A stretch of 55,468 nt of DNA from positions 1-55,468 of IMG/VR virus record IMGVR_UViG_3300028027_000070; one strand, 5' to 3'. Of this stretch, positions 35,260-41,273 are shown one piece after another. The DNA is from a virus. The translations under genes and the position numbers were made by a program. Below the pieces are notes generated by a model that was not told the origin of the DNA, ran no database searches, and was given only the letters and a program-made list of their open reading frames with translations. The stretch's first letter is position 1, and each line of letters opens with the position of its first letter.

Positions 35260-36726
35260 ATGATGATATCAAACAATGTGCTGGACTTTTCTTCCTTCCT
35301 TAATGAAGCTAAAACCGAAACAACAAAGGTTGTGGTTCTTACCGGCAACGTTACAGGAAGTAAAACTTCAGAATCATTCACAAAGGAATGTAAAAAAAGA
35401 GGTATTAAATGCTATATAGTAGATGTAAATGATGTTGTTCTTGAGAAAGTATATAATGGGCATTTACTTAAGACTGGCAAGGAAAAAATATTAATAGATC
35501 CAAATTCCACCGTTATAATACCAAGAAGAGGTGTGCTAGAAAATTCACACACTAGGCAAATTCTTTTAAACCTGGAAGCCGCCAGATATTTTACTGTTAA
35601 TACTATAGCTTCTATGGAAGCTTGTGAGAACAAATTTATAACATCTCAAATAATGGAAGCTAATGATCTTCCTGTTCCTAAATCTGCATTAGTACCTGAT
35701 GAAAATTCACTGGATAAGGCATTAGAAGCTGTAGGTGGGAAATTTCCCGTTATAATGAAGCTTCTTTCCGGAACACAGGGAATCGGCGTTTCTATAATAG
35801 ATTCATATGCATCTCTTAAATCTGTTTATCAAACAATAAGAAAACTTGATTCAACTAACGAGATATTAATCCAGGAAAAAATTGATTCCAATTACGATCT
35901 TAGAATACAGGTGATTATCAAAAAATTCAATCCTGATCCAAGAGAAGTTGCCAAGAATAATTCATTTATACTTGGAACTATGAAAAGAGGAGCTGTTAAA
36001 AAGGATTTTAGAACTAACTACTCACTGGGTGGAACCGTAAATAAATTTAAGATAACTAAGGAGCTTTCCGACATAGCAATAAAAGCAGCTAATGCTGTTG
36101 GATGTCACTGGTGTGGAGTTGATATAATGATAGATGCAAAAACTAAAAAGCCCTATATACTGGAAGTTAATTCGTCTCCGGGAACGGAAGGAATATCAAA
36201 AGCAATAGGTAAACCCATTGTTGATGATGTTATTGATTATATATTGGATAAAAATAGCTGGAGCTATTCTAATATGGAAGTTGGATATCTGGAAACATTA
36301 AGCATACCTAAAATTGGTGACATTATATCAAAATTTGACACTGGTAATGGATCTAAATCTTGTACATTACATGCAGATAAAGTTGAGGAAAAAGGCGGAA
36401 AGGTTCACTGGACGCTAGGAGGTAAGAAGTTTATAAATCCAATAGTGGGTCATTCTGAGGCTGAAATTGGAACCAAAAAGCATAAAAGACCTATCATAGA
36501 ACTTGATGTTGAATTTAATGGTGTTTTGGTACCAAAGGTAAAGATTTCTCCTGATGATAGAACAGATAAGAGCACACCATTTTTAGTAAATCGTGAATTT
36601 ATGAGAAGAGTTGGATTATCTGTTAATGCAGATCAAGCTTTTGTAGTAACTAAAAATCCGGAAGATAAATTTAGCTTAAAAAATGCAAAGGGTAATCCTC
36701 ATGCAGGAATAAAATTTAAAAAATAA
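35260..36726 (+). CDS. RimK-like ATP-grasp ligase fused to RimB-like protease domain, putatively packaged
   Basis: A protein of 488 residues (ATG 35260 or 35263). The N-terminus M-I-S-N-N-V-L-D-F-S-S-F-L-N-E followed by Ala is a good capsid-targeting-like match with an L-N-E site. Residues about 120-325 form an ATP-grasp ligase of RimK type (V-I-M-K-L-L-S-G-T-Q-G-I-G-V at about 165, E-I-L-I-Q-E-K-I at about 203, I-L-E-V-N-S-S-P-G-T-E-G at about 303). Residues about 340-480 resemble the RimB family, an ATP-dependent zinc/aspartyl-protease fold (I-S-K-F-D-T-G-N-G-S-K-S-C-T-L-H, R-P-I-I-E-L-D-V). RimK adds and RimB trims C-terminal glutamates on ribosomal protein S6. The fusion may modify host translation after injection; that is inferred. 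Confidence 0.8.
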   Translation: MMISNNVLDFSSFLNEAKTETTKVVVLTGNVTGSKTSESFTKECKKRGIKCYIVDVNDVVLEKVYNGHLLKTGKEKILIDPNSTVIIPRRGVLENSHTRQILLNLEAARYFTVNTIASMEACENKFITSQIMEANDLPVPKSALVPDENSLDKALEAVGGKFPVIMKLLSGTQGIGVSIIDSYASLKSVYQTIRKLDSTNEILIQEKIDSNYDLRIQVIIKKFNPDPREVAKNNSFILGTMKRGAVKKDFRTNYSLGGTVNKFKITKELSDIAIKAANAVGCHWCGVDIMIDAKTKKPYILEVNSSPGTEGISKAIGKPIVDDVIDYILDKNSWSYSNMEVGYLETLSIPKIGDIISKFDTGNGSKSCTLHADKVEEKGGKVHWTLGGKKFINPIVGHSEAEIGTKKHKRPIIELDVEFNGVLVPKVKISPDDRTDKSTPFLVNREFMRRVGLSVNADQAFVVTKNPEDKFSLKNAKGNPHAGIKFKK

Positions 36727-38858: not shown

Positions 38859-38883
38859 GATTGTTTCTTTAATAATAAACAAG

Positions 38884-39345
38884 GGCCAACATGGTATTGA
38901 TTGGCAGAGTTCGTTCTTTGAGATGCAGGCAGAGTTAGTATTGGAAACTCTTAAATAACCTATACAAAGCTTTAAACGGCAAAAACAATGTTTGGGATGC
39001 TATCAACGCGTTTGGTGCTCCCGCAGCTAAGGCTGAGTACGCAGTAGCGGCTTAACCGACCTGGTCTCACTTACCAAGGAAAGTAAATGTGAAAAATCCG
39101 GGTGGCTCCCTCAAGACTTTGGTCGTCGTCAAGGCGTACCTTGAGCATCCAGATCCTGGAGATCTATACAGGGGGCGAAAGAAAAATCCTTAGTGCCAGG
39201 ATAAATAATATCACTGAGTTGGTTGATTGTTCGGAACTCTGTTAACTGAACAATATATTTCGCTTTGTTAGAAAATGAAGCTAAGCCTGTGAATGAGTCC
39301 TTTGGCTATCTGAACAAGACGAGGGTTCGAATCCCTCTTGGTCCA
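38884..39345 (+). ncRNA. ssrA: tmRNA (SsrA) encoding a 25-residue tag
   Basis: The tRNA-like domain is formed by the 5' end GGGCCAA (38884-38890) pairing with TTGGTCC (39338-39344), discriminator A (39345), and a T arm GAGGG-TTCGAAT-CCCTC (39321-39337). CCA is not encoded. The mRNA-like part resumes at GGC (38978) and is translated G-K-N-N-V-W-D-A-I-N-A-F-G-A-P and then A-A-K-A-E-Y-A-V-A-A, stopping at TAA 39053. The ending E-Y-A-V-A-A matches bacterial tags (N-Y-A-L-A-A), and the start G-K-N-N is like Bacteroidota tags. The RNA is about 462 nt, longer than the usual 350-400. It would rescue stalled ribosomes and tag products for proteolysis. The exact resume codon is inferred; the upstream frame is open. 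Confidence 0.85.
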
Positions 39346-39351
39346 CGCGGA

Positions 39352-39402: not shown

Positions 39403-40071
39403 ATGATAGACAATAGAAAATATCATTATATTTACAAAACTGTAAATATCATAAATTCTAATTTTTATATAGGTTTGCATTCAACCAATAATATTAATGA
39501 TGGATATATGGGATCTGGAGATAGAATAAGAAGCTCTATCAGACATTACGGAAAGGATAACCATACCTTCGAAATATTGGAATTTTTAGATTCTAGAGAT
39601 CTTCTTTTAAGTAGAGAGAGGGAGATAGTAAATAGAGATTTATTAAAAAATCCATTATGTTTGAATATTATGGAGGGAGGTTATGGATTTCTTGACGAGG
39701 AGCACATGAAAAAAGTTAGCAAAGCTGGTAATGATGCTTTCAGAGAGAAATTAAAGGATCCTAATTACATGGAGGACTTTTTATTAAAATGTGATTCCAA
39801 GGGAAAGGCAGAAAATATGCACAGAATCCACATCGAAAGAGGATTCGATTTTGGTACATTTAGAAATAAAAAGCATACAACTGAAACTATTTCTAAAATG
39901 AAGGAATCAAAATCCGGAAAGGGATTAGGAAATGAAAACTCACAGTTTGGTACATGTTGGATTAATAGTGTTGAAATTGGTGATAAAAAAATTAGAAAAG
40001 AAGATCTTGAATTCTATTTGGAATCAGGATGGAAAAAAGGAAGAATTAAAAAATTAACTAAATTAAATTAA
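39403..40071 (+). CDS. GIY-YIG homing endonuclease with NUMOD motif
   Basis: The protein has 222 residues. The N-terminal GIY-YIG domain has Y-I-Y-K-T (about 8-12) and F-Y-I-G-L-H-S (about 22-28), with Arg and Glu further on (E-I-L-E-F, S-R-E-R-E-I-V). A NUMOD3-type DNA-binding repeat follows (K-K-H-T-T-E-T-I-S-K-M-K-E-S-K and N-S-Q-F-G-T-C-W-I, about 146-186), as in Seg-type free-standing endonucleases. It starts 57 bp after the tmRNA, a site where such mobile genes often insert. It may cleave tmRNA-lacking relatives at this locus and so spread, which is inferred. Confidence 0.9.
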   Translation: MIDNRKYHYIYKTVNIINSNFYIGLHSTNNINDGYMGSGDRIRSSIRHYGKDNHTFEILEFLDSRDLLLSREREIVNRDLLKNPLCLNIMEGGYGFLDEEHMKKVSKAGNDAFREKLKDPNYMEDFLLKCDSKGKAENMHRIHIERGFDFGTFRNKKHTTETISKMKESKSGKGLGNENSQFGTCWINSVEIGDKKIRKEDLEFYLESGWKKGRIKKLTKLN

Positions 40072-40532: not shown

Positions 40533-41273
40533 ATGATGGATGCATTTTTGGAAAAAATGAACGGTGAATGGTTAGATGATTTTGTTTATATAGCAAAACA
40601 GCCACTAATCGATATGGGATATAATATAGTTCCTTACGATGGGGATGATCTTGAGCATACACTAGTTATGAGAAACCCGGATCCAAACACTGATATATGT
40701 GTAGGTTCTGTACAGGGTACCGAAAAATTCTTTGAAGCATGTGGTGTGAATATACCTAAATATATTGGATACCCTGAGCAGCTTATGAAATATATGGGAA
40801 GAAAAATAGAAACGATGGCATTTAGCGATCTTGGAACAGATTTTCCATATTTTGTTAAGCCTGCAAACGAGGTTAAGATGTTTACTGGTGATGTTGTTTC
40901 TAATCCTAAGCATCTTGAATATCTTGTGATGTTTGATAAATGTCAGCCAGATACACAGGTAATAAAATCGGAGGTGATTGATTTTCTGTCCGAATATAGA
41001 GTTTTTGTTAGTCAGGGTAAAATATATGACGTTAAGCATTATAAAGGAACATGGAAGGAACACATCAGCTGGTCTGTGGTTGAGGATATGGTTAAAGATT
41101 ACAGTGGATGTCCTTCTGCATATACATTGGATGTTGGTATCGACTCTAATGGTCTAACCAGGCTTGTAGAGGTTAACGATATGTGGGCTATCGGCTCATA
41201 CGGAATGGATGGTAGGGATTACGCGCTATTATGTGCGAGAAGAATGAAGGAGATATTAAAAAATCAAAAATAA
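40533..41273 (+). CDS. ATP-grasp protein, R2K-like
   Basis: A protein of 246 residues (ATG 40533 or 40536). Matches to R2K-clade ATP-grasp proteins: Y-F-V-K-P-A-N-E-V-K-M-F-T-G (about 109-122), S-E-Y-R-V-F-V-S-Q-G-K-I-Y-D-V (about 152-166) and a C-terminal V-E-V-N-D-M-W-A-I-G-S-Y-G (about 213-225). R2K enzymes are predicted peptide or protein modifiers common in phages. The acceptor is unknown. A second ATP-grasp in the window alongside the RimK-like fusion at 35260. Confidence 0.72.
   Translation: MMDAFLEKMNGEWLDDFVYIAKQPLIDMGYNIVPYDGDDLEHTLVMRNPDPNTDICVGSVQGTEKFFEACGVNIPKYIGYPEQLMKYMGRKIETMAFSDLGTDFPYFVKPANEVKMFTGDVVSNPKHLEYLVMFDKCQPDTQVIKSEVIDFLSEYRVFVSQGKIYDVKHYKGTWKEHISWSVVEDMVKDYSGCPSAYTLDVGIDSNGLTRLVEVNDMWAIGSYGMDGRDYALLCARRMKEILKNQK

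Follow-up and report, generated by a model that had tools for sequence, protein, structure and literature searches.

A one-piece tmRNA with a 25-residue tag in a jumbo-phage clade and its probable role in phage-run trans-translation

Transfer-messenger RNAs (tmRNAs) of phages are known from mycobacteriophages Bxz1 and Wildcat and from Bacillus phage G (PMC4131195, PMC9004378), and a tmRNA is present in 402 of 18,146 phages (PMC9004378). According to PMC7162821, huge phages carry tmRNA and SmpB, and the largest of them are predicted to infect Bacteroidetes. Long tags are found in single-record annotations, with 22 residues in EniyanLRS and 28 in Gordonia phage Mareelih. The locus considered here lies in a stretch of 55,468 nucleotides (the window), positions 1 to 55,468 of IMG/VR virus record IMGVR_UViG_3300028027_000070, a 55-kb virus fragment with phage helicase, polymerase, ribonucleotide reductase and topoisomerase II genes. 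A preliminary description of the locus noted that phage tmRNAs are rarely reported; they are indeed uncommon, but they have been reported, including in huge phages. The window contains a one-piece tmRNA gene at 38883-39345 (plus strand), and the probable reading, developed below from sequence comparisons, is that of a working phage tmRNA supporting phage-run trans-translation with a Clp-directed tag of 25 residues.

The preliminary description proposed a covariance-model search as a check on its phage-encoded tmRNA, which is borne out both by this search and by a conserved fold. In Rfam cmscan, RF00023 (tmRNA) matched 38883-39348 on the plus strand above the gathering cutoff (48.3 bits versus 47, E 4.3e-16), and the tmRNAs of relatives score up to 87.3 bits; a run of ARAGORN on the window missed the tmRNA. 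The one-piece (ssrA) gene, which is kept in the clade, extends from the 5' G at 38883 to the discriminator A at 39345, and has 463 nucleotides before CCA addition, CCA not being encoded at the 3' end (ACG is found there). The start lies one base before the 38884 given in the preliminary description, where the length was put at about 462 nucleotides.

The fold was compared in nine divergent relatives. The 5' strand of the acceptor stem (GGGCCAA, 38883-38889) pairs with 39338-39344 in 7/7 positions, four of them with two-sided changes, and its third pair is the alanine identity pair G3.U70, which is G.U in all nine. The 5' strand of helix P2 (GCAGGC, 38925-38930) pairs with GCCTGT at 39285-39290, with 6/6 pairs kept in 9/9 sequences and no variation. 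Pseudoknot 1 (PK1, 38931-38965) follows, with stem 1 formed by 38931-38936 and 38946-38951 and stem 2 by 38938-38944 and 38959-38965, the latter containing one U.U mismatch; across the relatives both stems are 100% paired, with two-sided changes in each. At the 3' end (39321-39345), the T arm GAGGG TTCGAAT CCCTC, whose stem has 5/5 pairs and two-sided changes, precedes the 3' strand of the acceptor stem (TTGGTCC) and the discriminator. Altogether, 30 pairs from the acceptor and T stems, P2 and both PK1 stems are standard in all nine relatives, nine of these pairs have two-sided changes, and this level of pairing conservation was equalled by none of 500 shuffles; the tmRNA fold is therefore beyond chance, and the identity of 38883-39345 as a one-piece tmRNA is confirmed. 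A further pseudoknot, PK4 (39216-39254, plus strand like the other elements), has stem 1 at 39216-39220/39235-39239 and stem 2 at 39226-39234/39246-39254 and a score of -19.1 in the window, equalled by 1 of 100 shuffles. It is kept in one relative (L140); in another (L136) its sequence is replaced by one that can be drawn as a pseudoknot but has no significance alone. The PK4 signal is weaker in several relatives than in the window, with nothing decisive beyond the nearest ones, and the single-sequence fold (z = -1.17) is uninformative.

The tag frame, GKNNVWDAINAFGAPAAKAEYAVAA with a TAA stop (38978-39055, plus strand), begins at the resume codon GGC at 38978 and is a short open frame whose last codon is GCT, the encoded peptide ending in a hydrophobic residue and AA directly before the stop at 39053-39055; its 25 residues agree with the length described earlier. 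The context before the resume codon, CTTTAAAC ahead of GGC, matches the TTTTAAAC ahead of GGC that is found in several Bacteroidota tmRNAs. Fourteen viral contigs carry the tag pattern of the window, all with an identical resume context, and the 13 distinct tags of this type (F1) that were compared each have 25 codons and follow the pattern G[KNE]..VW[DE].IN.FG[AT]P; a stricter version of this pattern had no match in 84,980 species genomes. From its sequence, the tag is best read as one of Bacteroidota-like type (GENN...YALAA) into which a conserved stretch of about 15 residues (VWDxINxFG[AT]P...) has been inserted. The VAA end, which had been set apart from LAA, is not special, as VAA, MAA, IAA and YAA are all found at the ends of bacterial control tags.

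Tag length was compared between viruses and bacteria in a tag-blind sample, for which a pattern covering only the 3' part of tmRNA was used to fetch 120 viral and 116 bacterial loci that were treated in one pipeline. Among distinct tags, 51 of 76 from viral contigs have at least 20 residues, compared with 2 of 75 from bacteria (Fisher p 1.4e-18), and the medians are 23 and 9 residues, respectively. The tag of the window is far longer than typical bacterial tags, as had been recognized, but its length is no peculiarity of this phage. It should be noted that the viral distribution is two-humped and that short phage tags occur too, some of the viral contigs with short tags being possibly prophages or host flanks. 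An amphipathic helix was considered as a general rule for long tags and was rejected (mean z -0.07 over 29 representatives), and an encoded CCA is no mark of phage origin, being present at 64 of 120 viral and 58 of 115 bacterial loci. The Cardinium endosymbiont (L226) provides one of the only two bacterial control tags of at least 20 residues, VINNSRRCKFVALRRKEEEDDELRMAA. Several isolates of Stenotrophomonas, Synechococcus, Xanthomonas and Caulobacter phages (L265-L298) have predicted permuted, two-piece tmRNAs, mostly with shorter tags.

The window represents part of a genome from a jumbo-phage clade in which relatives reach 434 kb and this tmRNA is carried by nearly all members. A search with the polymerase found 23 relatives; tmRNA is present in 17 of the 18 clade contigs searched and also in G000 and G002, terminase is present in 11 of the 14 contigs searched for it, and a neighboring gene is 87% identical in the 434-kb contig, which bears the same tmRNA. 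BLAST of the tmRNA region against phage isolates gave no matches, and in Cellulophaga phage phi17:2 no tmRNA was matched at the limit used.

SmpB is encoded in each of the nine F1-tag contigs that reach 118 kb or more, and so is ClpP. In G003, G061 and G065, the clpP match directly precedes the smpB match with a gap of 34-40 bases, and in G003 the two open reading frames are 6 bases apart. A ClpC-like ATPase of about 700 residues is encoded in five of the largest contigs (G002, G013, G021, G025 and G062). The SmpB of G002 (L147:1465-1929) passes the NCBIfam equivalog cutoff (162.6 versus 130 bits). Its ClpP (L313:1363-2040) matches PF00574 with 192 bits and has an aligned Ser-His-Asp triad, and because it scores 246.9 bits with the ClpP model versus 65.6 bits with the head-maturation model, it is identified as ClpP, not a prohead protease. 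Its ClpC-like protein (L323:229-2355) has ClpC as best PDB match (E 2.5e-219) and keeps the GF of the ClpP-binding loop.

From the window and its relatives we infer how charging, tagging and proteolysis would proceed in this particular phage, which partner genes it would carry and what the insert would do. The tmRNA would be charged with alanine through the G3.U70 acceptor stem, be bound by SmpB, which relatives encode, and enter ribosomes stalled on broken mRNA, where it would take over the nascent chain and add the 25-residue tag. Release of the ribosome would allow phage translation to continue despite mRNA damage, for example late in infection or under an RNase-type defense, and the tagged fragment would be passed to a Clp protease for degradation, whether that of the host, the phage ClpP with the ClpC-like unfoldase, or both. 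The tag thus probably feeds Clp proteolysis. The preliminary description had suggested that the tag may alter handling by host ClpXP, and to this must be added the phage proteases, given the ClpP genes of relatives and the genes for a ClpC-like unfoldase in some of them; its other suggestion, that rescue might be kept running when host tmRNA is lost, is plausible in the form of self-sufficient rescue, because relatives encode their own SmpB. More tentatively, and less likely than not, the tags of phage tmRNAs may be a separate class, their insert being conserved at the peptide level and giving phage-tagged proteins a private route to the phage ClpC-ClpP machine, or an adaptor, apart from the ClpX pathway of the host. 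Several observations weigh against a working, Clp-linked tmRNA. The RF00023 score of the window is barely over the cutoff, and the in-frame signal of the F1 tags is weak (ratio of nonsynonymous to synonymous differences, pN/pS, 0.60 versus 0.77 and 1.10). The ClpC-like protein of G002 has no N-domain, and both it and the ClpP fall below their NCBIfam equivalog cutoffs. Searches for SmpB, ClpP and a Clp ATPase gave no match in the window itself, which is a fragment, and SmpB was not found in some clade contigs of 250-290 kb (G018 and G060), which are possibly fragments as well.

The weak in-frame signal means that constraint at the RNA level is possible in the F1 tags, which also keep nucleotide identity, and the lengthening might accordingly be a matter of how far apart the resume site and the downstream pseudoknots lie in the RNA, with no meaning at the peptide level; the lack of a general amphipathic signature in the insert is in keeping with this. 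However, in the insert core of three other tag families (F2, F4 and F5) changes are mostly synonymous, with pN/pS about 0.24, high pS and values of 0.48-1.62 in shifted frames where defined, although this is supporting and not decisive, the members having been chosen by peptide similarity, which lowers pN. A role in spacing alone is considered unlikely. The chance that the tag serves to stabilize or relocate proteins, and not to have them degraded, appears smaller: compared with bacterial tags, long phage tags are richer in acidic and in bulky hydrophobic residues, but the C-terminal A-[VIY]-A-A is similar to degrons already known, and the tmRNA is accompanied by a clpP gene.

It is highly improbable that the gene is a passenger, a host tmRNA captured recently and carried without selection in the phage. 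The Bacteroidota-like tag ends and resume context do indicate that its ancestor was probably a host gene, but the tag pattern is absent from the species genomes searched, the tmRNA is kept nearly clade-wide, two-sided base-pair changes have occurred within phages, and a tree built from tmRNA ends has 11 changes between viral and bacterial, compared with a shuffled mean of 59.7. Very little credence can be given to a decoy function, in which the RNA would tie up SmpB or ribosomes and shut down host trans-translation; this has been suggested for the molecule of mycobacteriophage DS6A, which consists of the tRNA domain only. Molecules of this kind are reported in phages (PMC4131195), whereas the tag frame of the present RNA is complete, PK1 and PK4 are both present, and relatives encode SmpB.

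The host of the phage is likely a member of the Bacteroidota. Phages of Maribacter, Cellulophaga and Flavobacterium give the best matches to a DNA transfer protein. The tag ends and the TTTTAAAC resume context are Bacteroidota-like, and the F1 sequences adjoin Bacteroidota ones in the tree of tmRNA ends, in which there is little signal per branch; comparison of SmpB with bacterial loci did not point to a particular host. One clade member, G018 (L349), has an unrelated tag (NVYNSEDxMSIPTSLT...) that is related to the tags of L055 and of the 735-kb phage LR756501 (near 718.5 kb), and this common tag suggests that tags may be exchanged between large phages.

The tmRNA region is flanked by genes for a RimK-like ATP-grasp protein (35260-36726) and an R2K ATP-grasp protein (40533-41273). 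A gene for a free-standing GIY-YIG homing endonuclease (39403-40071, plus strand; phrog_314, E 4.8e-33) begins 58 nucleotides after the tmRNA; homologues lie 71-79 nucleotides after the tmRNA in L133, L137, L351, L022 and L003, whereas L140, G002 and others have none. T4 SegB is likewise a free-standing GIY-YIG homing endonuclease beside a tRNA-like gene (PMC2988022, PMC13096335), whereas the predicted homing endonuclease gene of the window follows a tmRNA, with which it may form a SegB-like mobile cassette.

If the proposed function is correct, ribosome rescue is carried by some giant phages as a unit with the disposal of tagged proteins, and phage tags represent a natural library of degrons. 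Whether ribosome rescue guards phage translation against RNA-cleaving defenses could also be tested with the phage tmRNA, and the contrast in tag length may help to distinguish phage from host tmRNAs in metagenomes. Neither the rule for viral versus bacterial tag length nor the linkage with Clp was found in the open-licence papers searched, and both may be reported elsewhere. With respect to the huge phages of PMC7162821, Clp is absent from the main text, and the passages on tmRNA contain no discussion of tag length. The bacterial one-piece tmRNA (ssrA, RF00023) of the Bacteroidota type resembles that of the window in G3.U70, the T arm, P2, PK1, the TTTTAAAC context before GGC, the tag start G[E/K]NN and the tag end YA[L/V]AA, but the RNA of the window has 463 nucleotides and a 25-residue tag with a 15-residue insert, whereas bacterial control tags have a median of 9 residues. 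Compared with the tmRNAs of Bxz1, Wildcat and phage G, its tag belongs to another sequence family, and its clade adds SmpB and ClpP.
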